A DNA stretch of 20,816 nucleotides from a virus: IMG/VR virus record IMGVR_UViG_3300015371_000681, positions 1 through 20,816 of that record. The stretch is one strand, 5' to 3'. A program made the translations under genes and the position numbers. The notes beneath the pieces are model-generated. The model did no database searches. It saw only the letters and a program-made list of their open reading frames with translations, and had not been told where the DNA came from. Shown here one piece after another: positions 779 to 19,816 of the stretch. Numbering within the stretch: position 1 is the stretch's first letter; each line of letters begins with the position of its first letter.

Positions 779-1277
779 AAAGAAGAAAGCTTTAGAAACT
801 CTTCGGGATCAAGGTCTGCTCACTCCTGCAATGGAGGAAGAGCTACGTCACTTGCTGCAAGTTGAAGAGGATTTGAAGAAAGAAGAGAAGAATGACCTCG
901 ACGACAAATCTCGTGAAGCTGAATCTATTCTTGCTCTTATCCGCCGCCAGGATCTTTTTACGTCTAAAGTCTGTAAGTATCGTGGCTGCAATGGTGTTTT
1001 TGCTTCTAACTACGCTGATGTCGCTTTTTGCTCTAATCGCTGTCGTAGGTTAAAGCTGGAAGAGCAAGGTATTATATGGGATCATAAAAAGCCACCTGCT
1101 CAGAGATGGGGTTGGCGGGGAATTCCAGAGGACTTTGAATCAGTGCCATTAGTCGTACCAGCCGAAGCCTTAAAGGCTGCTGCACATCATCCTGTTATCC
1201 AGCAATTTTTAGCTGAGACGCTAATAGAGCTGGTTGCTGATGATAGGACTGTTGACGCTTCCGCGCCCTCTCACTAA
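759..1277 (+). CDS. Zinc-finger protein, possible DNA-binding
   Basis: This 172-residue protein has a Lys/Glu-rich helical N-terminus (about residues 1-66). A compact zinc site follows: C72-x4-C77, 13 residues, then C91-x3-C95 and a basic RRLK tail. This treble-clef-like arrangement is common in small phage and bacterial nucleic-acid-binding proteins. The remaining C-terminal half is Pro/Trp-containing and then helical, with no nuclease motif I can identify. It begins inside the resolvase gene, so it is part of the same operon. Its last 83 bases overlap the convergent WhiB gene. A role in replication, recombination or transcription control is possible but not shown. Confidence 0.7.
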   Translation: MTKEITKKKKALETLRDQGLLTPAMEEELRHLLQVEEDLKKEEKNDLDDKSREAESILALIRRQDLFTSKVCKYRGCNGVFASNYADVAFCSNRCRRLKLEEQGIIWDHKKPPAQRWGWRGIPEDFESVPLVVPAEALKAAAHHPVIQQFLAETLIELVADDRTVDASAPSH

Positions 1278-1491
1278 TTCCCCACCACCCCTTCTCCTTT
1301 AATTGATAGGCAGTACGAATGCAAATATCTTTGACGGGACAGTCATCACAAAGATACCGTGCTCCACCATAATTTTTGTGGAAGAGCATTTCATCTACCA
1401 TTTGATAAGCTAGACGCCGGTCGTCTAACTCATCAGCAAGCCATTCAGCATAACTGCTGCATTGACTTAGTAGCTTCCATTCCCCTGCCAT
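1195..1491 (-). CDS. WhiB-family iron-sulfur transcription regulator
   Basis: This 98-residue protein matches the WhiB (Wbl) family, small [4Fe-4S] proteins that bind the principal sigma factor and DNA in Actinobacteria. Four cysteines are present in the expected order: C11, then C48-x2-C51-x5-C57. After them come the G-W-W-G turn (68-71) and the SERARKRQ basic helix that contacts DNA. The family's usual GIWGG turn is altered to GWWGI. It is the last gene of the leftward block and is separated from the holin-like gene by a 54-base gap. The gap holds a TTGACT hexamer but no convincing -10. A short AAGG lies unusually close to the ATG. Phage WhiB proteins can alter host sigma-dependent transcription; that role here is inferred. 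Confidence 0.88.
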   Translation of the reverse strand: MAGEWKLLSQCSSYAEWLADELDDRRLAYQMVDEMLFHKNYGGARYLCDDCPVKDICIRTAYQLKEKGWWGISERARKRQQSYHQQPALLASQLKIAG

Positions 1492-1545
1492 ACCTTAGAG
1501 TGTGTCATAACCTCTAATAGAAGTCAAGCACACAGTTAGTGGGAA

Positions 1546-1740
1546 CTAAACTCGGGAGTTAGGATCATTAGGAGTAAGCCAAGTAGTAAAACCAGTAACG
1601 GCTAAAGCCCCTAATGCACTCCACCATTCTGCTGATGTAATATTAGAACCACCATCAGTGAAGGTTCCGTTAGCAGCAAGTAACATTCCCGCTCCCGCAA
1701 GAACACCTGCAACTAAAGCCTTACGAATAGGTCCAATCAT
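1546..1740 (-). CDS. Holin-like small membrane protein
   Basis: This 64-residue protein has a basic N-terminus (IRK), a hydrophobic, Ala/Gly-rich helix at residues 8-24 and a polar turn containing TFTDGGSN. A second hydrophobic segment spans about residues 38-55, before a short polar tail. Two membrane segments separated by a short loop, placed directly after an endolysin candidate (endolysin stop and this ATG are adjacent), fit a phage holin. Many actinophages carry a protein of this size and pattern beside the endolysin. The holin function is inferred from topology and neighbours. Confidence 0.75.
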   Translation of the reverse strand: MIGPIRKALVAGVLAGAGMLLAANGTFTDGGSNITSAEWWSALGALAVTGFTTWLTPNDPNSRV

Positions 1741-2595
1741 TTAGCTCACCTGACTGTCGATAGAATCTAGCCTATTGCCGATGTTGACAAGAGCAGCAGT
1801 AATGCTATCTAACTGTGCTTTTACTGCCACGTCTCGCTCTTTAGTGTTTTTATCCCGAGCAAGTTCACGAGTGCGAAACTCTTCAAACTCCGCACTTAAA
1901 GCGTTCACCTTATCAGTAGCATTAGCAGCTTGCTGAGAAGCCTCCTGTAGTTTAGAACGGGCCTCATCCACGTCACCCTCAGGACCAATTTTCTCAGCCC
2001 AAACTGCGTTTGAAATTTCCGCTAACGTAGGCAACTGATTATCCTTCCACTTCTTTAAATTGAATACAGGAATAGGGTGGGGCCTTGGATGATAGTCCTT
2101 ATGCTCAGGACTTAATCCATCATTCCCTCTGCGATAACTTCCCCACTGAAATACTGCACCTGGTCCTGATGGTTCGGCGCCGCCACCATCAACACCTTTA
2201 AACTCATCTAATAAGGTCCAATGCATATGTTCATCGAACCCACCATGTTGGGAATCTCGTCTCCAAACCGCCCAACCTACAGAACGCGAAGCAATAATTA
2301 CTTTACGCTCTTGTGCTGAATCAATATCCCAAGTTCGAGTATCAATACAAGAACTTAGATCGTGATATCCCGCAGAGGCATCTGCTCCACCACCTGCGAA
2401 TTTCATAAAGGCACCCTGGACAATATCCAACTCATTAGCCAGATTATCAGGTAGCTTCTCCATTGTTGCTAAGTAAGCTCCCCACATTCTACGACTCATG
2501 AAGAGGGGGCGTCCAGAAGTGTCGTCACCTAAGTAAAGAACTTCATATCGGCCGTCTAAAGTACGTTGGCCTTTCACTCTATATTTAGTAAACAT
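1741..2595 (-). CDS. Putative endolysin, M15-type zinc peptidase with C-terminal coiled coil
   Basis: This 284-residue protein resembles actinobacterial and actinophage wall-active proteins with a Hedgehog/DD-peptidase-like (M15-related) zinc fold. The visible metal site is H78-x6-D85 in a GYHDLSSCID context, then FDEHMHW giving H123 and H125. The family sequence WGSYRRGNDGL follows near the middle. Residues 1-60 form an N-terminal extension. Residues about 200-284 are heptad-rich and probably a coiled coil, where a wall-binding or oligomerisation role is possible. There is no signal peptide, consistent with release through a holin. It sits between a membrane protein (2599-2967) and the holin-like gene. 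It is predicted to cut peptide bonds in peptidoglycan; the exact bond is unknown. Confidence 0.7.
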   Translation of the reverse strand: MFTKYRVKGQRTLDGRYEVLYLGDDTSGRPLFMSRRMWGAYLATMEKLPDNLANELDIVQGAFMKFAGGGADASAGYHDLSSCIDTRTWDIDSAQERKVIIASRSVGWAVWRRDSQHGGFDEHMHWTLLDEFKGVDGGGAEPSGPGAVFQWGSYRRGNDGLSPEHKDYHPRPHPIPVFNLKKWKDNQLPTLAEISNAVWAEKIGPEGDVDEARSKLQEASQQAANATDKVNALSAEFEEFRTRELARDKNTKERDVAVKAQLDSITAALVNIGNRLDSIDSQVS

Positions 2596-2598
2596 ACA

Positions 2599-2967
2599 CT
2601 AGTCTCTCTCTAAACAATCTTGTAAATCTTTGGCGTTTACAACAATAGCTACCTCCTGTAGTGAATGCTTAGCTTTATCACTTGAATTTAATAAAGGTAC
2701 TGCACTAGTTTGATCTTTAATATCTCTAAGAAATGCACTAAATTCATCAAAGAATTTTACTAATGCCGCTCTATACTTTTGAGACGATTCATCCCTTGTA
2801 CCCACGGATTTAATAGCACATGTAACAATATCATTTGTTTGTTTATTTTCAGTATGCCATAAGTAATACGAAGGACTGATCATTAAGAAGCCTATTACAA
2901 CGGTAGCTATGACCGCTGTAACTCCGGGATTACGATTAATCCATAATGGATTATCTCGGTTAGGCAT
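2599..2967 (-). CDS. Single-pass membrane protein in the lysis cluster
   Basis: This 122-residue protein has a short polar N-terminus, one clear transmembrane helix at about residues 16-36 (VTAVIATVVIGFLMIS onward), then a soluble helical domain of about 85 residues. Two cysteines (positions about 50 and 118) could pair outside the membrane. Size and topology resemble a membrane-anchored accessory lysis protein, but no family is recognised. Its start overlaps the end of the 36-codon gene at 2960-3070, and the endolysin gene follows within a few bases. A role in holin control or envelope disruption is inferred from position only. Confidence 0.65.
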   Translation of the reverse strand: MPNRDNPLWINRNPGVTAVIATVVIGFLMISPSYYLWHTENKQTNDIVTCAIKSVGTRDESSQKYRAALVKFFDEFSAFLRDIKDQTSAVPLLNSSDKAKHSLQEVAIVVNAKDLQDCLERD

Positions 2968-3070
2968 GTATGATTCCTAGGTCGGTGAGGACGGCAAGAG
3001 TGTAGAGAACAGGCCATACTACAAATAGGACAAAACAAGTAGCAGGGTTATGTTTAATCAGACTTGACAT
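2960..3070 (-). CDS. 36-residue membrane protein (very short gene)
   Basis: A short ATG-initiated reading frame fills the otherwise empty stretch between the genes at 3054-3248 and 2599-2967. It encodes 36 residues: a short N-terminus (MSSLIKHNPAT), one strongly hydrophobic helix (residues 11-29) and a short tail ending in GIIHA. The ATG lies inside the end of the upstream gene and is preceded by a purine-rich GAGATGAGA. Its TAA overlaps the next ATG as ATGCCTAA. The tight fit with both neighbours and the good membrane helix argue for a real gene, perhaps a holin partner or antiholin. Function is not known. Confidence 0.5.
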   Translation of the reverse strand: MSSLIKHNPATCFVLFVVWPVLYTLAVLTDLGIIHA

Positions 3071-3248
3071 TCGTCTCATCTCTGTTAAGAACATTGTCAA
3101 CCTTAAGTCCCAAGGCTAATGACCAAGCTCCTGTGCAGAAGAAATATACTGCCGGGTCCCGTTGACCGAATACAGTTTCATAAACTCCTAGTAAGGCTCC
3201 AACCATTACTAGAATATAACTGCAAACGATTCTCCATGAAGTTATCAC
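3054..3248 (-). CDS. Two-helix small membrane protein, possible second holin
   Basis: This 64-residue protein starts at GTG, preceded by AGGGTGG. It has hydrophobic segments at about residues 5-25 and 32-50, joined by a short loop (FGQRDPAV), and a charged tail (DNVLNRDETNVKSD). The pattern fits class II holins or related phage membrane proteins. It lies between the transglycosylase gene and the lysis block, 12 bases after the former. Since a second holin-like gene sits at 1546-1740, one of the two may be a holin and the other an antagonist or partner. That is inference. Confidence 0.65.
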   Translation of the reverse strand: MITSWRIVCSYILVMVGALLGVYETVFGQRDPAVYFFCTGAWSLALGLKVDNVLNRDETNVKSD

Positions 3249-3260
3249 CAGCCACCCTAC

Positions 3261-3905
3261 TTATCGCCGTCTATTCATGATAGCGCGCATTTGTGCTAGA
3301 ATACTATCAGCATATCCACCTGTTGAGGGGTAACCACTACCACCGCTAATATTGTTATTACCGACTGCGCCAGGTCCACCATACCACGCCTGAGCAGCCC
3401 CGCGCGCTCCGTACTGGCGAAAGTATTGCCTAAGTTTATGGCGAGCAATTCTCTCTTGCGCCCTCGGGTGACGCATGTAATAACGGAGTCTAATATCTCG
3501 TCCTAACGCTTCTTTATCCCATCCTCCTGGACCAACGAAGTTACCTGGCATAATTTGGTATTTACCTGCGGCACCTGAACTAGAGTTCACAGCACCGTAA
3601 TTACCGCCAGACTCCTGCCCAGAGATAGCTTTCATAAAGGCTTCAAAACGAGCGTTATTGCTGTGCGGCATTTTACCGTGATGTTTAGGACCGCCTCTGT
3701 GTCCTCCACCACCACCTAAACCCCGCATACTTCCACTGCTTGCTGCTGACATTCTATCCATTTTCTGAATAGAACTAAGCAACCCCATAGTGGCTTTACG
3801 CCTTTTAACGGAAGCTTTTTGCTGATCACTCAGAACCTTAAGTAGACCAGTCGCTCCATAATTAGTATTGAAGCGAACACTCGCTGCATCAAAATCTTCG
3901 GCCAT
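3261..3905 (-). CDS. Virion-associated lytic transglycosylase (SLT-like)
   Basis: This 214-residue protein has a helical N-terminus (1-55), a Gly/His-rich linker (about 58-84) and a lysozyme-fold domain of the SLT type. The catalytic Glu is E98 in SGQESGGNYGAVN. The typical SGAAGKYQIMP stretch follows (residues 110-120), and an AAQAWYGGPG-like motif lies near residue 170. SLT domains cleave the MurNAc-GlcNAc bond of peptidoglycan. The gene starts on the TAATG of the VanY-like gene and closes the run of internal virion proteins. It therefore probably rides in the particle and opens the wall during DNA entry rather than serving in lysis. In T7 a comparable domain is fused to the large internal protein gp16; here it is a separate chain. 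Confidence 0.85.
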   Translation of the reverse strand: MAEDFDAASVRFNTNYGATGLLKVLSDQQKASVKRRKATMGLLSSIQKMDRMSAASSGSMRGLGGGGGHRGGPKHHGKMPHSNNARFEAFMKAISGQESGGNYGAVNSSSGAAGKYQIMPGNFVGPGGWDKEALGRDIRLRYYMRHPRAQERIARHKLRQYFRQYGARGAAQAWYGGPGAVGNNNISGGSGYPSTGGYADSILAQMRAIMNRRR

Positions 3906-4510
3906 TATTTAGTCCCGAAGAATGGGAAGGAGAAGTGCATGGGGTCCTTCTTACTTCCGTGCCAATTACCGCCCCAGGTAATTCCGTAACGCTTAGCTAG
4001 TCGTCCAATTCCACGCGGAAGATTTTCGTGCATTCCACGTCGAGAACCATAATAGACTGGGTTAGAGGACGGGTTAATGTCAATAGCTAAACCGTACGAA
4101 TGTAGACTGCGAGTGCTAGTCCCAGCAATATTCCTATTGGCATAGCCGCCAATAGAGTCAATATCGTAACCCGTTTTCTTAAGGGCTCGTAAGAATCGTT
4201 TGAAGTCATCTGCCACCGTCTTATTGACTTGAACCGAATGGCCTTGACCATCCCTAATAGTAACAATTTTAGCGTTTGGCCTAATAGGTCCAACCGCTCC
4301 ACGAGCATGACCAATTTTACCGAGACTCTTACCCATCCCTACAGGAGGTCCATTGAATTTTCCTGAACCTCCTCCGCCACCAAATCCAGCACTCTGTGAT
4401 GCACGAGCGTTCATATACATCTTAATGAGACGCCCGGTCGCATCCATACTAGATTGTGAGGAAGCAACGCTTTGACGCGCAATTTTTTCAATTTCAGAGC
4501 CGTAAGCCAT
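3905..4510 (-). CDS. VanY-like M15 D,D- or L,D-peptidase, virion-associated
   Basis: This 201-residue protein carries a clear M15 (VanY/endolysin-type) zinc peptidase domain at the C-terminus. Ligands are H137 and D144 in SLHSYGLAIDINPSSNP, and H192 in DPMHFSF; WGGNWHG (179-185) is the family's typical substrate-side turn. Residues 1-40 are helical and 41-60 Gly-rich, an extension not needed for catalysis that may anchor the protein in the particle. Both boundaries are TAATG overlaps, with the 1131-residue virion protein upstream and the transglycosylase downstream. It likely cuts stem-peptide bonds while the transglycosylase cuts glycan during entry. An alternative is a second endolysin, but position favours a virion enzyme. 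Confidence 0.85.
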   Translation of the reverse strand: MAYGSEIEKIARQSVASSQSSMDATGRLIKMYMNARASQSAGFGGGGGSGKFNGPPVGMGKSLGKIGHARGAVGPIRPNAKIVTIRDGQGHSVQVNKTVADDFKRFLRALKKTGYDIDSIGGYANRNIAGTSTRSLHSYGLAIDINPSSNPVYYGSRRGMHENLPRGIGRLAKRYGITWGGNWHGSKKDPMHFSFPFFGTK

Positions 4511-7500
4511 TAGTATTCAACTCCGAAACGATACTTAAGAATCTGCCTAATTCGAGCGTTCTCTTCGGTTGTTAAATCTTCCTCAAACAGCTGACGCAAA
4601 AGCTCATTACGCATATCGCGTTCCGTTAATTCACGAGAATACATACCAGTCAAGTTAGTTGCAGCCGGACCCAAGTTACCTTCACCCTCATTAAATGCAC
4701 CAGTAGCACCAAGAATCTGTCGCATAAATGGAACAGGTAATTGGTTAGCAGTGTATTCAACTGGACCAGGCAAAGGTACATTTTCACCAGCAAACATTGA
4801 CTGATGACCCATCATTAATTCTGCCGGAATTCTAATTGCAGGGTTAGATTGTGAGATAAAGGAGTCCGCAATTCCACGTCCTCCAGCAGCAAAATCTCCA
4901 CCCTGGAAGGCGAGAATATCACTGAATGGTGAGGGGTAACGAGCGAACATCGGATTACCAGTACCAGGAGTATTATACATCGGTAAGTAACCGCCGGCCT
5001 TTAACCAGTCAGGTACTAATTGATTATCTAATCCTGGCAGCGGATCATCTTCTGTAGGCCAATATCCAAATGCCCCACTGAGGTTTCGGGTAATTTTCTC
5101 CGGAATGATAACCTTCCCTGGATGCTCGAACATGAACCGAGACATAAGGGGTAAGGCTTTTCTTGTCCACTTGTAGAAGGGAAACACGTTGGACAAATAT
5201 TGCTGTTCAAATTTGGTGAAGTCCGTGTAATCAAAATGGGTCATCCTAACCCTGTCAGCAGCCCACTGCATAGCCTCATCAAGAGACCTAGCTTTACTAG
5301 GATTAGAGCGAAGTAAATGCATGAAATGAGCCATGCGCATATAATCTTCACGCCATTCAGAGATACGCCTAAAAGGCTCTCCCATCTTTCGAGTAACCCC
5401 TGAGAAAGCAGTCTCGAAAGTATTAACGGCTGACTCTAGTTCACCGAATTGAGACACAGCAAAGTTCTGACGAATACCGTGTTTGTTCATTCCAGCATAA
5501 ATTTCAGAGTCAAGAATGTATTTCTTAACCTGTCCTTCTGCGTCACGAAGATTAGCAGTATTCCGAATTAAAGGTTTATTCTGAATCTTTAAAGCGTTCT
5601 TAAGAGGGTCACCCGCCATACGTAACAGCGGATCAGAACCGTCCACAAAACCCTCGAATTTCTCCATTCCATGAAAGCGCCAGCCTAATAACCTAGCAGC
5701 CGCTCGGTAATCAGCTGGATTAACAGCACCATCAATCCAGTTAATAAAAGCGTCTCCCATAAGATTACGAATGTGGTAACCAGGGTTAGGCTGTGTAACA
5801 AGGAATTTCCAAGGACCTGTAATACGATTCAGGAATTTAGTAAAATTAGACCATTCTCTCTGATCCTCCATTGTCTTAAGCATCTTAGAAATGCCTTCGG
5901 CAACTTCTGGATTAAAGACAACGTCTTCTAATTCTTTAACACCCTTAGCAGGAACCCAACCGCGTTTCTTCACTAAGTCATTCACAAGAATCCGCCCTGC
6001 CTCATCAACAGTAGCTAATTCTTTAGAAAAACCAAATGAAGCAATAAGGTTGTCAAGTAATTGACGTCGAGCAGCAGCATGCTCTACGGCAGCGGTAGCG
6101 ATCCATAAAGAGTGTGCTCCATCCTTCATACCCTTAATGTTGGAGTCTTTAGCTACGCGCAATAAAGAAGAACGGAACCAATCCTGTTCTTGGAAAGCCT
6201 TCTGTAGTTCAGCCTTCTTTCCCTTAAGAATTTTACCAGTCTTAGGATTAATTAAACCAAGTTCTAGCCCAATCTCCTTCATCTTACGCTTACCAAAAAT
6301 AGGAGGCAAACCAGGAGGCAGCATCCTATTAAGCTCAGCAGGAGAATAAGGAAGCTCTCCTAATAAACCTGTAACCCGCTGAGAAAGCATATCAACGTGA
6401 GCACTAAATACGTCCGAAGCTACTTGTTCCACATTAGACCCTGGAGCTTTAACTAAAAGTTGTCCCGAATCTCTGCGAAGTCCTAACATCCATTCTGCAA
6501 CGCGATCCTCTCGCGTCATTTTACGGATAGCACTACCGTCCTTTACATGCTTAAAGGTGTCGTCAATATAACGACCAGCCATATAAGTAGTAGAACGGCC
6601 TAAATGCATCGCCTCAACTTTAGTGCGATATACGTCCTCCACAATTTTATGGGAGTTACGCAAATACTTTTGAGTGATGTCAAGACCTTGCTCAATAGGC
6701 TTAATTTGAGCGATCTTCTGTAAACCTTCAAGTGTCTTAGAAGGCAGAATGGGAACTCGGACTTTCCTCGTACCAATACCAAGAGTCTGTTTGTAATTAG
6801 CCTCGACAATAGTACGGTAATTGTCCAGAGCTTCTTTAATTGTTAATTCAACAGCCTCATCGCCAGCTTTAGTAGCAGCTTCTCCTGCCATAACCTTAGG
6901 ACTCATGAACCGATAATTACGGTCCTGAATAGAGGACTTAGGCAGTTTCTGAATATTAGCTAAGGTATCACTAAATACCCTATTAGCAGCAAAGCGACCT
7001 TTATCATTGGCGATCTGTCGAATTAAATCAGCAGCTTCTCCCTCTTTAGCCTGTGCTCCCTTAGCTTTCTGGAATCCTTGCCGGAACTTATTAGCAGTTA
7101 ATAGGTCTTTAATCTTACGCGCTTGTTCGTCCGACATAACGCCGGTTTTAAGGAGGTTATTAACTAGCTTATTCTGCCGAGTAACAGCAGCTTCGACTGA
7201 CTTAGCATCCTTAAAAATACGAGCGCCAGTACCCATTTTACCTACAAGACCAACACCAATATAAGTAGTAGGATCGAGCAGGATATCGCCAGTAAGACCT
7301 ACAGCAGCGGTTGTCTTATTATGCTTCCTCCACCATTCTGGAGTAGTTCCAGGTACATTAACACCCGTAGCTTTGTTAACACCAATTCCAAATCCAGCAG
7401 AAACTGGATTAGCTTGAGTGTTCCGAAGAACTTCTCCAAAGGTAGTGTGTTCTTTTCCACTAAAACCTTGCCATGCTCCGGCTCCACCTGCCCGGAACAT

Positions 7501-7906: not shown

Positions 7907-9757
7907 TTAAATTAAGCCCCACTCAATCTGTAATGCTTGCTTAATTGCAAGCTTCAACTTCAAAGGCGCAGTCTTAAGGTTCGTGTGAGTCATAAGGTAT
8001 TTAATCATGTGGTTGTCTTTACGCTGAGGGAGATTAGCCCAACCACCGGCAGAAGCGATGTTATTAGCTGCTTCTTCAACCCTAATGTAAAGGTCAACTC
8101 CACCGCCCTTAAGACCACGATCCTTCAAATAGTCAACAGCACCAGTACGAGAGTTAGAGTACCCTCGTGGCTTCTTCCTCTTAGGCTTATTGTTATCAAG
8201 CTGGTCAGCCATAAACTTAGCTTTATCCAAACCGAACTTTTTAAGGTCCAATTTGTTTTGGAATCGCTGAGTTCGAGTGTCCTGCTTGAATTTAGCAACG
8301 TCAAGACCAAATTCTCGATTAGCCAACCTAGAAGCTAAACGGTCCTGAATTGCTTGACTTCGAGCCGCCCTATTAGCTGCCTGTAGAGCAGTAACAGCAG
8401 TGCTGATCTTACCGAGTCGAGTAGCCCCTAATGCAGACCTCTGATCCCTGAGAGACATAATCTCATCAGTAAACTTCTGACGCGCAGTAGTACGAGCTCC
8501 TAATCCCTGAGCCTGTAATTCTCCACCAATCAAAGCCATTAATTGATCGAAGCCCTGAGTATTCTCTCGCTGTGCTGATGAACTTTCAGCTTGCGAAAGA
8601 TTAGCCTGACTAAGAGCGTATTTTTCGTCTCGGGATAAACCGGAAGTAGCAGCGTCAGTAACTCCACCAATACCTAGGCGAGATAGTTCATCTTTAACAT
8701 CTTGAGTCGCACTATCATAATTACTGCCAAGATTCTCTTTAATCCGCTCATAAGCATTACGAGTATCTTCAAGAGCATTAGCACCACGAGTATCAATACG
8801 TTCTGTATTACTCTCGTTCTGTGCTCCTGCACGTTCGTATAGACCCTTTAAGTCTTGAAGCGTACGCTTCCTTTCTTTTCGGGTCTGCTTAACGCGGTGT
8901 GTAAGAGCCTTAAGTTGCGGATCAAGTTCAGCACTAACAGCTAAGCCAGCTTTACGGTATAATTTACCCGCACCAGTACCTCGCTCCCGAACATCTTTCA
9001 TCATGTTCTTACGAGCGATTTGAACTAGTTTTTTCTCTCGCTTGGGATTTTTTGTATGCTTAACGATGTACTTACGTCGCTTACGAAAATCTGCAACTTC
9101 CTTTTTAACGTTTTGCTCATTAGCACGGAGATAACGATTCTCAGTGATATTTGTAATCTTACGCGCTAATCGCTTACCAGGCTTGCCAAGTTTAATATCC
9201 TGCTTTTTAGGCTTCCCCTTGCCTGGACCCTTGCCTCTGGGATGGTGCCTCTTCTTGAGCTTTGGCCGGTTAGGCTTGCGATGGGGTCGCCCCGGTGCTC
9301 CTGGCCCTTGATGATGCGGAGAACCTAATTTCGGAGGCGGCCGATTATGAGTAGGCTGCTTAGGCGGGTTCTTTTTCTTTGGTTTAGTTCCGTGACCTTT
9401 AGAGCCGCCCTGACCAATAGCATTTCCGCCTAAACCCACTCCGCTACCAATACCACCATAATGAGGCTTAGTATTACGGCGCGCAGAAGAAACTCGCTTA
9501 GCTGACTGTCGAGCGTAGAAGTTATTACTACGATTCAGCCTTTTAACTAGACGGTGCGTAGACCGTTTCTGTTGACGTCCATAAGTGCCGCGTGCCTGTG
9601 AAGTATTAATAGCGTTCACAGCACGCCTCGTGGCACGAGTAATCTGTCGATTAGACGCACCACTACGAACTAAACGCTGAACACGCCTAATCTTTCGTGA
9701 AGTATGCAATCCTCGACGACGATTTAATCCGCCACCACCTGGATTTACTGGATACAT
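7907..9757 (-). CDS. Hyperbasic internal virion protein, candidate DNA-binding ejection protein
   Basis: This 616-residue protein has two parts. Residues 1 to about 260 are exceptionally rich in Arg, Lys, Gly, Pro and His, with low-complexity Pro/Lys/His runs around 120-200, and must be disordered and strongly positive. Residues about 280-540 are long helices with coiled-coil character (repeated Gln/Ala/Arg/Glu heptads). A small folded domain closes the C-terminus. I recognise no family. It starts on a TAATG junction with the smaller ejection candidate and ends two bases before the 1131-residue gene. The charge suits contact with packaged DNA inside the head, and the helical part suits assembly around the portal. 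Both are inference. Confidence 0.65.
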   Translation of the reverse strand: MYPVNPGGGGLNRRRGLHTSRKIRRVQRLVRSGASNRQITRATRRAVNAINTSQARGTYGRQQKRSTHRLVKRLNRSNNFYARQSAKRVSSARRNTKPHYGGIGSGVGLGGNAIGQGGSKGHGTKPKKKNPPKQPTHNRPPPKLGSPHHQGPGAPGRPHRKPNRPKLKKRHHPRGKGPGKGKPKKQDIKLGKPGKRLARKITNITENRYLRANEQNVKKEVADFRKRRKYIVKHTKNPKREKKLVQIARKNMMKDVRERGTGAGKLYRKAGLAVSAELDPQLKALTHRVKQTRKERKRTLQDLKGLYERAGAQNESNTERIDTRGANALEDTRNAYERIKENLGSNYDSATQDVKDELSRLGIGGVTDAATSGLSRDEKYALSQANLSQAESSSAQRENTQGFDQLMALIGGELQAQGLGARTTARQKFTDEIMSLRDQRSALGATRLGKISTAVTALQAANRAARSQAIQDRLASRLANREFGLDVAKFKQDTRTQRFQNKLDLKKFGLDKAKFMADQLDNNKPKRKKPRGYSNSRTGAVDYLKDRGLKGGGVDLYIRVEEAANNIASAGGWANLPQRKDNHMIKYLMTHTNLKTAPLKLKLAIKQALQIEWGLI

Positions 9758-10272
9758 TATGGCCGCCTATTTTTCTTCTTCTTCGTAAGCTTTCCTCGAC
9801 CAAAACCTAAATTACCAGCATTCCGCTCAGCGCCTTGCGCTTGTCCCTGCATCACATTAGACAGCTGATACTGATAATTAGCCATAGCACGCTCTTTATC
9901 TTCACGCATACGGTCTAAGTTAATACCTAATTCAGAAGTGAGATTAGCCTTCTGATTAGCCATTTGATTCGCTGCTTGACCGTAATTATAACCATAACCT
10001 GAGGAGAACGCCATTCCTCGTCCCGCAGCATTATTTAAGATGCTACGGTAAACGTTAGGTGCCTCTTGATTAATGTCACGAATGGCATTAGTCGTATACC
10101 TATTAGCGTCTTGAACATTGCGTCGATAATCAGACCGCATGTTCATGCGACCCTGCAATAAACTCCGTCGCCTTTGTGCAGCACCTAAATCAAAAGGAAG
10201 CGCAGTAGGCTGAGGCTTAGGCGGGCCTGGGTTCTTGGGCGGCTTGCGGGGCTTGCGCTTGATTTCCGGCAT
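9757..10272 (-). CDS. Small basic internal virion protein candidate
   Basis: This 171-residue protein has a Pro/Lys-rich N-terminus (residues 1-28) and a helical, Gln/Asn/Ala-rich middle (30-150) with a Gly/Tyr segment near 88-97. It ends in a Lys-rich tail (LTKKKKNRRP). The ATG is preceded by GGAG at a suitable distance. The first 56 bases overlap the end of the upstream gene in another frame. The helical Ala/Gln-rich core between basic ends resembles small podovirus ejection proteins in style, though no specific family is recognised. It is coupled through TAATG to the 616-residue protein, suggesting stoichiometric production. Confidence 0.6.
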   Translation of the reverse strand: MPEIKRKPRKPPKNPGPPKPQPTALPFDLGAAQRRRSLLQGRMNMRSDYRRNVQDANRYTTNAIRDINQEAPNVYRSILNNAAGRGMAFSSGYGYNYGQAANQMANQKANLTSELGINLDRMREDKERAMANYQYQLSNVMQGQAQGAERNAGNLGFGRGKLTKKKKNRRP

Positions 10273-10555
10273 TATAAATTCTCCCTCTACGATCCTTCAT
10301 TAATCCAGGACCTACAGGAACTAGAGGCTGTGGAATAATAGGAGTAGGCATACTTTGCTGTTGATTACCGTTAATTCGATCTCTAAGATTTAATGCTGCT
10401 GCGGCTAATCCTGAACGACTATCACTCTGTTCTTTTTTAATTCCTCGTTGGATATAGCCAGTCGGGTCTTTACGTCCCGAATCAGGAGCATGGCTAGTTC
10501 CACGGTAAACTCTATTACCGTTTAAGAAGCTACGCTCCCGTTCTTGACCCTTCAT
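10217..10555 (-). CDS. Small hypothetical virion-region protein
   Basis: This 112-residue protein is polar and probably disordered, with a basic N-terminal half (RERSFLNGNRVYRG) and a Pro/Gln-rich C-terminal half ending in AQAPQAAQEPRPA. It begins after AGGATAAGAAT, 22 bases downstream of the nozzle-like gene, and its tail overlaps the next gene by 56 bases. Position suggests a minor virion or assembly protein made with the ejection proteins. No catalytic motif or family is visible. Confidence 0.55.
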   Translation of the reverse strand: MKGQERERSFLNGNRVYRGTSHAPDSGRKDPTGYIQRGIKKEQSDSRSGLAAAALNLRDRINGNQQQSMPTPIIPQPLVPVGPGLMKDRRGRIYNAGNQAQAPQAAQEPRPA

Positions 10556-17012: not shown

Positions 17013-19133
17013 TTACATCCCAGGCAATACCTGTTGCATTGGGTCTTGTGGATATTGCTGAGCTTGTTGCTGACTAACTTCTTGTCCACCCTGGTCTACA
17101 GGGGGCGCAATTCCCTGCTGTTGCATCATAGCCATTTGAACCATCATTTGATGTTGAGTAACGTGGTCCTCAAAAGCGGCCTGTGCTTCTGGCGGGAGAA
17201 TTTCAAATTGCTGAGTTTTACGGAACTGATTATGAACTTCAATATGAAGCTCATGATTATCAAACGTATTAACAGGCAATCCCATAACAGGCTGCATAGG
17301 CTGACCAGTCATCGGGTCAACACTATTCGGATCCATTAATGGCATCCCATCAGGGCCTGTCATTGGTTCTAACATGCCCTGCTGCATCTTAAGGTTTTCT
17401 CGGGTAGCCTGTCGCTTATCAGTTTCTAAGTTCTCATAGAGTTTCTCAATACCCGGGAAATTGAGAACCTCTAGTCCAGCCAATGCTGGAATGTGCTGGT
17501 TGTTCATTAAATCAGTAATAAAAGCTTGACGAGCCGATTTACTAATCGAAAGAGCAGAACCCTGCTCAACTCGAACGTCCTTATTACCTTGAATTGCTGA
17601 TCCCTGGAACATCTGAGCGTCGAAATAAGCGTCAGTACCAACGGTCTTGACTAAACGCTCAGTATCCCAATACTGCTCAACATAGGAGAGTGTAAGAAAA
17701 CCTAACTTCTCCATTCCCATTTCAATACTATCAATCGTAGTACTAAGCTGAGAGTCATCCTGTTCTTGAAGAGTGCTAATAGCAGTAGCCGCTACCACAC
17801 TTCCAGGAGCGTTTCCTCGAGAAACTTCATGCTGCGCACTTAAATCATCAAAGTCCATACGTAACTGATCTAGATGATTAATTACGTAACTAGGAATCTC
17901 CGGAGGCTGTTGTGCTTTAGGCTCTCCAAGACCCGGATTAAACTCAATTACTTGTCCAGGTTCAGAGGTCATCCGCGTAGGATCAATAGAACCCTTCGGG
18001 CTGATATAGCTAATTTTGCCCATCAAGTTCTTATTCTCAACAATCTGAGAACGTGTCCTATTAAGTTCCCTCTGTACTGGAACTAAGTCCTCAATAACTG
18101 AGGCAGGATAAAATTGACCGGTAGGAATGTGATCAATTTTAACGAACGGATATTTCTTATGGTGATAAGGATACGCAACCTCAGATTGCTGAGGCGCCAT
18201 AGCAGCCATTTCTGGCGGCAAATTAGGATCAACAATCGGCATCCTACTAATCTGAGCTAGATTATCGCCTACAATTAAAAGGTAAGCACCCTTCGGAAAA
18301 CGAGCAACTTTCCCAGGCTTAATCCACATTTCAAGTAGTAAAACTTCATCAGGCTCACTATTTTTAGCTGCCGTCAAATTAAGGAAAGCCTCTTCCATAA
18401 TAGAAGAAACGGCCTTAACATCAGGCTGAACTTTCAATCCAGGGAAACGAGAATTAACCCACTCTACAGAGCGTGTCTGAGCATGGATAATGTAGGACTG
18501 ATTCTCAATCTCCTCTTCTAACAGATCAGGTACGAAAATATGAAAAGGGTCTACCACTAGGTAATCAATATCGCCCTGGTATTCGTACTGGCCGTATCCA
18601 CAAATAGCCATCGGGTCCCAAATGGACTTGATAAACCCGACCCCACAAGAAGAACTCCAAAAGACTGCTTTCTTTAATTTATTTTGGATCTTCTTCTCAT
18701 CATAAATCGAAGTAAAAATCTGTTCTGCCACTCGGGCTGCTACAACATCTTGATCTTCTGTAGTATTAGGTACGACAGTCCAATTAGGTTTAGACGAAGT
18801 TAACTTAGCAATCTCTTTACGAATAATTGGGCGAATCATATTAATCTGTAAACGCACTCGCCAGCGCGGAGCAGGAGGTACGTACAGCTTAAAACCTGAG
18901 GCAGAAGTAGAAGTCTTAATCCAGTCTACGTACTGATGCCCCAAAAGAAAGCTCAGATTTAAATACCATTGACGCTCTTTTTTGAGTCGCTGAGCCTTAC
19001 AACGTTTGTACTGATCCTTAACCCAGGCAACGGTTTTCTTATCTTCCGCTACCTGACCTTTTCCGGTTATAAAACTAAGAGCCTGTTGCGCACGGCTCGG
19101 AGAATCAACCGACGAAAGATCCGCTGCCATCAT
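17013..19133 (-). CDS. Portal protein
   Basis: This 706-residue protein forms the dodecameric ring through which DNA enters and leaves the head. P22-type portal features are visible. The wing contains LKKAVFWSSSCGVGFIKSIW (residues about 151-170) and VVDPFHIFVPD. A stem and crown-side helical region has DLVPVQRELNRTRSQIVENK (about 345-365). A further stretch reads SRGNAPGSVVAATAISTLQE, and the C-terminus is a Met/Gln/Pro-rich tail. The length matches P22-like portals rather than shorter siphovirus portals. The start has two adjacent ATGs behind AGGG. Its first 29 bases overlap the end of the membrane protein upstream. Confidence 0.9.
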   Translation of the reverse strand: MMAADLSSVDSPSRAQQALSFITGKGQVAEDKKTVAWVKDQYKRCKAQRLKKERQWYLNLSFLLGHQYVDWIKTSTSASGFKLYVPPAPRWRVRLQINMIRPIIRKEIAKLTSSKPNWTVVPNTTEDQDVVAARVAEQIFTSIYDEKKIQNKLKKAVFWSSSCGVGFIKSIWDPMAICGYGQYEYQGDIDYLVVDPFHIFVPDLLEEEIENQSYIIHAQTRSVEWVNSRFPGLKVQPDVKAVSSIMEEAFLNLTAAKNSEPDEVLLLEMWIKPGKVARFPKGAYLLIVGDNLAQISRMPIVDPNLPPEMAAMAPQQSEVAYPYHHKKYPFVKIDHIPTGQFYPASVIEDLVPVQRELNRTRSQIVENKNLMGKISYISPKGSIDPTRMTSEPGQVIEFNPGLGEPKAQQPPEIPSYVINHLDQLRMDFDDLSAQHEVSRGNAPGSVVAATAISTLQEQDDSQLSTTIDSIEMGMEKLGFLTLSYVEQYWDTERLVKTVGTDAYFDAQMFQGSAIQGNKDVRVEQGSALSISKSARQAFITDLMNNQHIPALAGLEVLNFPGIEKLYENLETDKRQATRENLKMQQGMLEPMTGPDGMPLMDPNSVDPMTGQPMQPVMGLPVNTFDNHELHIEVHNQFRKTQQFEILPPEAQAAFEDHVTQHQMMVQMAMMQQQGIAPPVDQGGQEVSQQQAQQYPQDPMQQVLPGM

Positions 19134-19506
19134 CCGACCCTATAAACTCAGAGAGGTCAAAAGGCTGTAAGCCTTCTGCAATGCGTTGACGGTTTACTTC
19201 ATCTAAATCTGTACCGGATGCAAGATATTCACTCGTCGAGTTCATCGAGGAATTTGGAATCACTGTCGTCGTCGCTTGAAGTGCTGAGAACGTCTGAGGA
19301 TTCTTCGACAGAACTAAGTTCGTCAGTTCTTGATTCCTCATCATTAGTTCCCCCACTAGCTTCCTCAGGTAATTTATCTCCGTCGGAGCTAATGTCTTCA
19401 CTTTCGTCCGGCGAGGTTTCTTCTCCCAAACTTGGAGTGTCTTCCAAATCAGTCCCGTCAGAATCGTCGTGACCAAAATTAGAAAGACTAAGACTGGAGT
19501 ATCCAT
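19105..19506 (-). CDS. Membrane-anchored protein encoded out of frame inside its neighbour
   Basis: This 133-residue protein begins at an ATG six bases after GAAGGA, a good ribosome site. A TTG at 19512 would add two residues. It has one N-terminal transmembrane helix (about residues 5-21, VLVFLILVTTILTGLIW), a basic stop-transfer stretch (EKKPRRTKVK), and a helix rich in Leu/Asn (INYLRKLVGELMMRNQELTN). The C-terminal 45 residues are acidic and polar, containing GLQPFDLSEF. About 278 bases of the gene are also read in another frame by the zinc-finger protein at 19229-19816. Its end overlaps the portal start. The start signal and clean membrane helix argue it is translated. Function unknown. 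Confidence 0.6.
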   Translation of the reverse strand: MDTPVLVFLILVTTILTGLIWKTLQVWEKKPRRTKVKTLAPTEINYLRKLVGELMMRNQELTNLVLSKNPQTFSALQATTTVIPNSSMNSTSEYLASGTDLDEVNRQRIAEGLQPFDLSEFIGSDDGSGSFVG

Positions 19507-19816
19507 CGACAATCCTTCGCAGGTGCTCGTTTTCCACCGTTAATTGAGTGACCTGCAATTCCCGAGAAGCAAGTCTATTAGCAATATCTTCATAGTCACC
19601 AGGGGAAATTAGACCGGCAACAGCTGCTAATTCACGAATACAGTTATAACAGATGTAGCAGACGCCGTACCAATCAATGTCTCGACCTAAATCGACCATA
19701 CCAAAGCTTTTACCTTCGGTATTTCCATTATCGGTAGTTCCGCATCCAATACAAATGTTAGGGGCCTGATAATATTCCCCAACCTTAAATTTATAACTAA
19801 TAACATTATCCGACAT
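19229..19816 (-). CDS. Zinc-binding protein with acidic Ser-rich tail
   Basis: This 195-residue protein has an N-terminal zinc site with C22-x2-C25 and, 27 residues on, C53-x2-C56-x2-C59 (VCYICYNC). A helical region with heptads at about 75-107 follows, then a long tail (110-195) dominated by Asp, Glu and Ser. The tail region is the part shared, in a different frame, with the membrane protein gene at 19105-19506. The start is a TAATG overlap with the upstream gene. Zinc-ribbon proteins next to portal genes occur in actinophages without a known role. A small nucleic-acid or portal/terminase-linked factor is possible. Confidence 0.7.
   Translation of the reverse strand: MSDNVISYKFKVGEYYQAPNICIGCGTTDNGNTEGKSFGMVDLGRDIDWYGVCYICYNCIRELAAVAGLISPGDYEDIANRLASRELQVTQLTVENEHLRRIVDGYSSLSLSNFGHDDSDGTDLEDTPSLGEETSPDESEDISSDGDKLPEEASGGTNDEESRTDELSSVEESSDVLSTSSDDDSDSKFLDELDE

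Follow-up and report, generated by a model that had tools for sequence, protein, structure and literature searches.

Directly upstream of the P22-type portal gene, on the minus strand of the window (the whole stretch of DNA analysed, a 20,816-nt virus record), lie two overlapping ORFs, the first for a zinc-ribbon protein and the second for a membrane protein (table 1). The membrane protein ORF (inner ORF) opens with an ATG at 19506-19504 within the zinc-ribbon ORF (outer ORF), and its 3' end shares 29 nt with the start of the portal ORF. A first-pass annotation of this DNA had placed both ORFs correctly, both frames being on the minus strand, and the GAAGGA site that it assigned to the inner gene is present.

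Table 1. Features of the overlapping gene pair and the adjoining portal gene, in window coordinates
Feature	Position	Strand	Basis or remark
Outer ORF, zinc-ribbon protein, 195 aa/codons	19229..19816	-	ORF list, family alignment, AlphaFold2 model
Inner ORF, membrane protein, 133 aa/codons	19105..19506	-	ATG within listed 135-aa frame; conserved family
Dual-coding overlap, 278 nt	19229..19506	-	Inner frame is +1 of outer
GAAGGA Shine-Dalgarno-like site	19513..19518	-	Six bases upstream of inner ATG
Zinc-ribbon part of outer protein, residues 19-62, two CxxC pairs	19631..19762	-	Alignment and AlphaFold2
Long helix of outer protein, residues 72-113	19478..19603	-	AlphaFold2
Acidic tail of outer protein, residues 114-195, predicted disordered	19232..19477	-	pLDDT 50-58
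Predicted transmembrane helix of inner protein, residues 3-29, N-out/C-in	19420..19500	-	K/R excess on C side
Inner-protein conserved motif SKNPQTFSALQAT	19270..19308	-	Family SKDPxTFQxL
P22-type portal gene	17013..19133	-	Pfam P22_portal, E 4.7e-30; phrog_156 portal

Elsewhere on the minus strand of the window, a second ORF pair (9757-10272 and 10217-10555) shares 56 nt, again read in different frames. In the region 1195-4510 of the same strand, a WhiB-like ORF (1195-1491) and small membrane ORFs accompany ORFs for an SLT transglycosylase-like protein (3261-3905) and an M15 peptidase (3905-4510); the gene order resembles that of Jasmine, and the region is likely one of lysis or tail enzymes.

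The zinc-ribbon and membrane proteins

Family statistics given below refer to 110 non-redundant loci picked for having both ORFs. The zinc site previously noticed in the outer frame of the window was confirmed as a CxxC...CxxC arrangement at residues 22-59, and the family alignment has near-invariant P19, C22, C25, G51, C56 and C59. CxxC...CxxC was found in 95 of 110 relatives of the outer protein. Zinc ligands are missing in some lineages, including those of Jasmine and Shocker, indicating that the overlap arrangement does not depend on metal binding. The outer genes of L008, L011, L106, L112, L115, L116, L131 and L144 have lost the CxxC...CxxC ligands and kept the overlap.

AlphaFold2 predicts a zinc ribbon and a single long helix in the outer protein, with the remainder disordered. 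The tail had been described as consisting of Asp, Glu and Ser only and as lying exactly where the overlap lies; it is indeed acidic (34% D/E in the window) and falls within the overlap, but it includes other residues, and the overlap starts earlier, at residue 104, inside the helix that ends at residue 113. An 84-aa Ser-rich ORF runs antisense over the overlap (window 19218-19472, plus strand) and is probably a by-product of the Asp, Glu and Ser codons of the tail.

The inner start was assigned by sequence, from a Shine-Dalgarno (SD)-like site and a start codon. An SD-like word lies upstream of 73% of inner starts versus 9% of control NTG codons, and the hydropathy of the transmembrane (TM) segment at the inner start exceeds that of codon-permuted sequences at p<0.05 in 99 of 110 loci (window p = 0.017), both figures being inflated because SD and TM were used in part to pick the inner start. 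The TM helix and charge cluster of the first-pass annotation were both recovered, the helix being followed on its C-terminal side by KKPRRTKVK in the window, and K/R is in excess C-terminal of the TM helix in 108 of the 110 loci. The inner protein is predicted to be a single-pass, N-out/C-in membrane protein with its helices and the SKDPxTFQxL motif in the cytoplasm; the near-invariant D of this motif is replaced by N in the window.

Neither protein falls in a Pfam or PHROG family whose function is known. The only family match of the outer protein is PHROG 37518 (function unknown), which aligns end to end with Jasmine gp13. Solved-structure and fold searches returned only coiled-coil or ribosomal zinc-ribbon noise, and the single good viral-library fold match to the outer protein is A0A898KB96, a protein of 175 aa without a name. 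Pfam and PHROGs held no usable family for the inner protein, and tblastn of inner proteins against the isolate-phage collection matched only their own close relatives.

Conservation among related phages

The nearest isolate relatives of the portal, at ~36% identity, come from the Arthrobacter phages Jasmine, Casserole, Brad and Adat, from Cellulosimicrobium phage DS1 and Microbacterium phage Shocker, and from a phage of a spring metagenome. All of these phages have an ORF at the inner position that overlaps a zinc-type ORF. Profile searches with portal and terminase, of which the best 80 matches per search were kept (for portal relatives, the best 80 of 298), added ~160 loci, many of them metagenome contigs and one a Streptomyces contig (L182). 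By scripted count both ORFs occur in 130 distinct loci whose portals are as little as ~32% identical in pairs (median 46%); comparison of these homologous loci, a check proposed with the first-pass annotation, found both frames intact and in the same +1 register in 130/130, with 95-332 nt shared. Adjacency to portal or terminase is partly built into this set, since the searches were anchored on those genes.

The pair was also present throughout an unselected listing of ORFs between terminase and portal, and no in-clade locus was seen to lack it. The script had flagged three in-clade exceptions, and on inspection the overlap was found in all of them: it is normal in L039, accompanied by a weak TM in L027 and without a TM in L009 (the spring phage). 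When outer synonymous codons are permuted, the +1 frame of the window stays open across the overlap in 3.7% of shuffles. Over the family an open +1 frame would be expected in ~20 of 110 loci and is observed in 110, a comparison that is descriptive because the loci were chosen for carrying both ORFs; the third frame is open in none of them.

The eight matched Jasminevirus records and that of DS1 (MW590223) carry no annotation of the inner gene. In Jasmine (NC_041875) it corresponds to 7005-7460, where the gene numbering jumps from 13 to 15, and in Shocker (MW507126) it is annotated as gene 19 with a start ~100 nt late. Gene callers disfavoring long overlaps would plausibly account for this gap. 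We found no open-access paper describing the zinc/membrane gene pair, and the word "overlap" is absent from the main text of the Jasmine phage paper. Across a large podovirus group, all members examined keep a gene that the isolate records checked either omit or shorten.

Selection on the two frames and origin of the overlap

In 17 close pairs, substitutions per site at outer codon positions 1, 2 and 3 are.103,.060 and.278 in the outer-only part and.177,.082 and.079 in the overlap, where the fast site is outer position 1, that is, the inner third position. Given the outer class of each change, inner nonsynonymous changes number 190 versus 256±8 expected, below all 2000 simulations. The window differs from its 96%-identical relative by 11 changes in the overlap, of which 7 replace an outer residue and leave the inner protein unaltered. 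Judging from these substitution patterns, the inner frame is under purifying selection at the residue level.

The outer frame behaves differently. Given the inner class, its nonsynonymous changes (307 versus 312±6 expected) give no sign of residue-level constraint in the overlap, and outer-protein identity is 0.78 in the tail versus 0.87 in the zinc part. Yet the outer frame stays open for 216 nt on average versus 118 expected when inner codons are permuted (278 versus 128 nt in the window, p = 0.012). With inner codons resampled, 1.94 stops are expected in the outer tail and none is observed, hydrophobic residues are rarer than predicted, and D/E makes up 19.6% versus 13.9% expected, being higher in 107 of 110 loci. 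The D/E excess persists when stops are excluded from the null (0.192 versus 0.142; higher in 81 of 86 loci, the window not scored). Two portal segments and the non-overlapping part of the inner gene, used as controls, had no stop depletion, D/E excess or hydrophobic deficit. Open, acidic and poor in hydrophobic residues beyond the null, but free of detectable residue constraint, the outer tail seems to be under selection to stay open, acidic and soluble. The suggestion that an acidic low-complexity tail can tolerate a second frame fits this pattern, with the constraint on the tail being one of openness and composition.

The first-pass reading of the locus as overprinting is borne out by the constant register, by purifying selection on the inner frame and by an outer frame that is stop-free and acidic beyond what the inner frame demands. 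From these sequence comparisons we consider it highly probable (about 0.9) that the head-assembly operon of Jasminevirus-like podoviruses contains a true dual-coding overlap. The more than 100 diverged natural overlaps allow residue-level and composition-level selection to be separated within a dual-coding region. Were only the membrane gene to matter, the zinc tail would be an accidental read-on to a random stop with no selected role. This is unlikely: it is consistent with the lack of visible residue-level constraint in the tail and with a variable tail end, reflected in overlaps of 95 to 332 nt, but not with a tail that exceeds the length predicted by inner-codon permutation, contains no stops and is extra acidic while the controls are clean.

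The overlap series also points to which frame is younger. The inner-protein profile matches small membrane proteins encoded between terminase and portal in a distant clade with 28% portal identity (L185-L187, E 1e-7; L184, 7e-7; L188, 4e-5; L016, 7e-5), and these proteins combine a TM and a coiled coil with a DLPEYKA-like motif. In that clade the zinc gene was not found, nor a long overlap with one, and the outer profile gave no match. PHROG 14818 (function unknown) weakly matches these stand-alone membrane proteins (E about 1e-4), and the window's own two proteins matched neither it nor PHROG 37518 at E 0.01; tblastn of the stand-alone proteins against isolate phages gave no match. A similar TM protein with a weak match (E 0.04) at L183:2765-3091, on a contig titled Candidatus Omnitrophota MAG, hints that the inner family may be wider still. 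The L183 protein carries VMSKNYQDYVF and is encoded upstream of a 24%-identical portal. Since the membrane gene stands alone in the distant clade, it is probably the older of the two and the acidic tail of the zinc gene the younger, overprinted frame, on the evidence of a few outgroups. The tail would have been born when the reading frame of the zinc gene later ran into the older membrane gene.

Two further readings of the overlap fare worse. A fusion protein joining both ORFs by programmed frameshifting, raised as a further possibility in the first-pass annotation, is suggested by overlapping frames on the same strand, but was not supported by a scan of the overlap for slippery sites: -1 heptamers occur in only 7 of 110 loci and known +1 words in 6 of 110, with none shared. 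Such a fusion is very improbable also because the inner gene comes with a start and an SD-like site of its own and is found alone elsewhere. That only the zinc gene is real and the inner ORF a chance open frame can virtually be dismissed, for although acidic Ser/Asp-rich codons do give long open alternative frames, the antisense one included, the inner protein with its TM and motif is conserved in 130 loci, the substitution periodicity of the overlap follows the inner frame, and stand-alone homologues exist in the distant clade.

Proposed function and relation to known systems

We propose that ribosomes start the membrane protein independently at the internal Shine-Dalgarno site inside the zinc gene, with coupling to the upstream gene possibly aiding initiation. 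The membrane protein would face the cytoplasm and act as a tether, keeping assembly of the portal or of the packaging motor at the membrane. Its partner in packaging or assembly would be the zinc-ribbon protein, whose acidic tail is predicted to be disordered. We hold this pair of roles tentatively, at somewhat less than even odds; that of the tether is read only from gene position, constant between terminase and portal in both clades, and from predicted topology. More doubtful is the fuller reading of a clade-wide dual code, in which a sequence-constrained tether and a composition-constrained tail of its zinc partner share the same DNA, the latter overprinting an older assembly gene. On this fuller reading the locus might, with similar doubt, provide a conserved and unannotated head-assembly factor of podoviruses, including those of Gram-positive hosts. 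If the membrane protein does work with the portal, it is a testable candidate for the start of head assembly in these phages.

The membrane protein may instead be real but have a different job at the membrane, for instance in superinfection exclusion or DNA entry, a possibility to which we give the same low weight as to the fuller reading. Exclusion factors are commonly small single-pass membrane proteins, and there is a Pfam SieB match far under the cut-off (E 0.11), but the place between terminase and portal is fixed in two diverged clades and in-clade loci are never seen without the membrane gene. A spanin-like or holin-like role in lysis is distinctly improbable. The likeness lies in a small protein with TM and coiled coil whose gene overlaps another in +1 register, as in overlapped spanins, and there is one weak match to a spanin PHROG (E 3.8e-4) among the 110 inner proteins. 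Against this, a lipobox-like match occurs in 3 of 110 inner proteins and in no outer protein, the outer partner is a zinc protein and not a membrane-anchored i-spanin, the locus is outside the lysis cassette (the annotated holin and endolysin of Jasmine are ~20 kb away), and the isolates' known hosts, being Gram-positive, have no outer membrane. A hydrophobic 19-aa stretch of any kind was found in only 12 of 110 outer proteins. A spanin or holin identity was rejected on three counts, the lipobox, the partner type and the location.

For the preferred role as a tether, the closest functional analogy that we propose is phage T4 gp40, described as a chaperone assisting the membrane-bound portal initiator gp20 (PMC9958956). 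Both would be small viral proteins aiding portal assembly at the membrane; the parallel is proposed for function only. Tblastn of the inner proteins against the isolate-phage collection showed no sequence link to gp40, and the place in the operon differs.

In layout the locus resembles overlapped spanins, in which the +1 register is frequent, the partner gene is often missed by annotators and the C-terminus of the upstream protein diverges within the overlap (PMC6139136). The first-pass comparison with nested Rz/Rz1 genes holds to this extent: like Rz/Rz1 and P2-type spanins, the pair combines a same-strand overlap in +1 register, a membrane protein, omission by annotators and a divergent upstream C-terminus. 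It departs from them in lacking a lipobox and an anchored upstream partner, the latter being replaced by a zinc-ribbon protein, and in lying in the head module, not a lysis cassette, of phages with Gram-positive isolate hosts.

Terminal overlaps that arose by overprinting have been reviewed for viral genes (PMC8227390). As in those, the 3' end of one gene here runs over the 5' end of the next and one product is disordered. Unlike in those, the likely younger part is the C-terminal tail of the upstream gene, and this tail appears to be kept for its composition across more than 100 diverged dsDNA phage loci.
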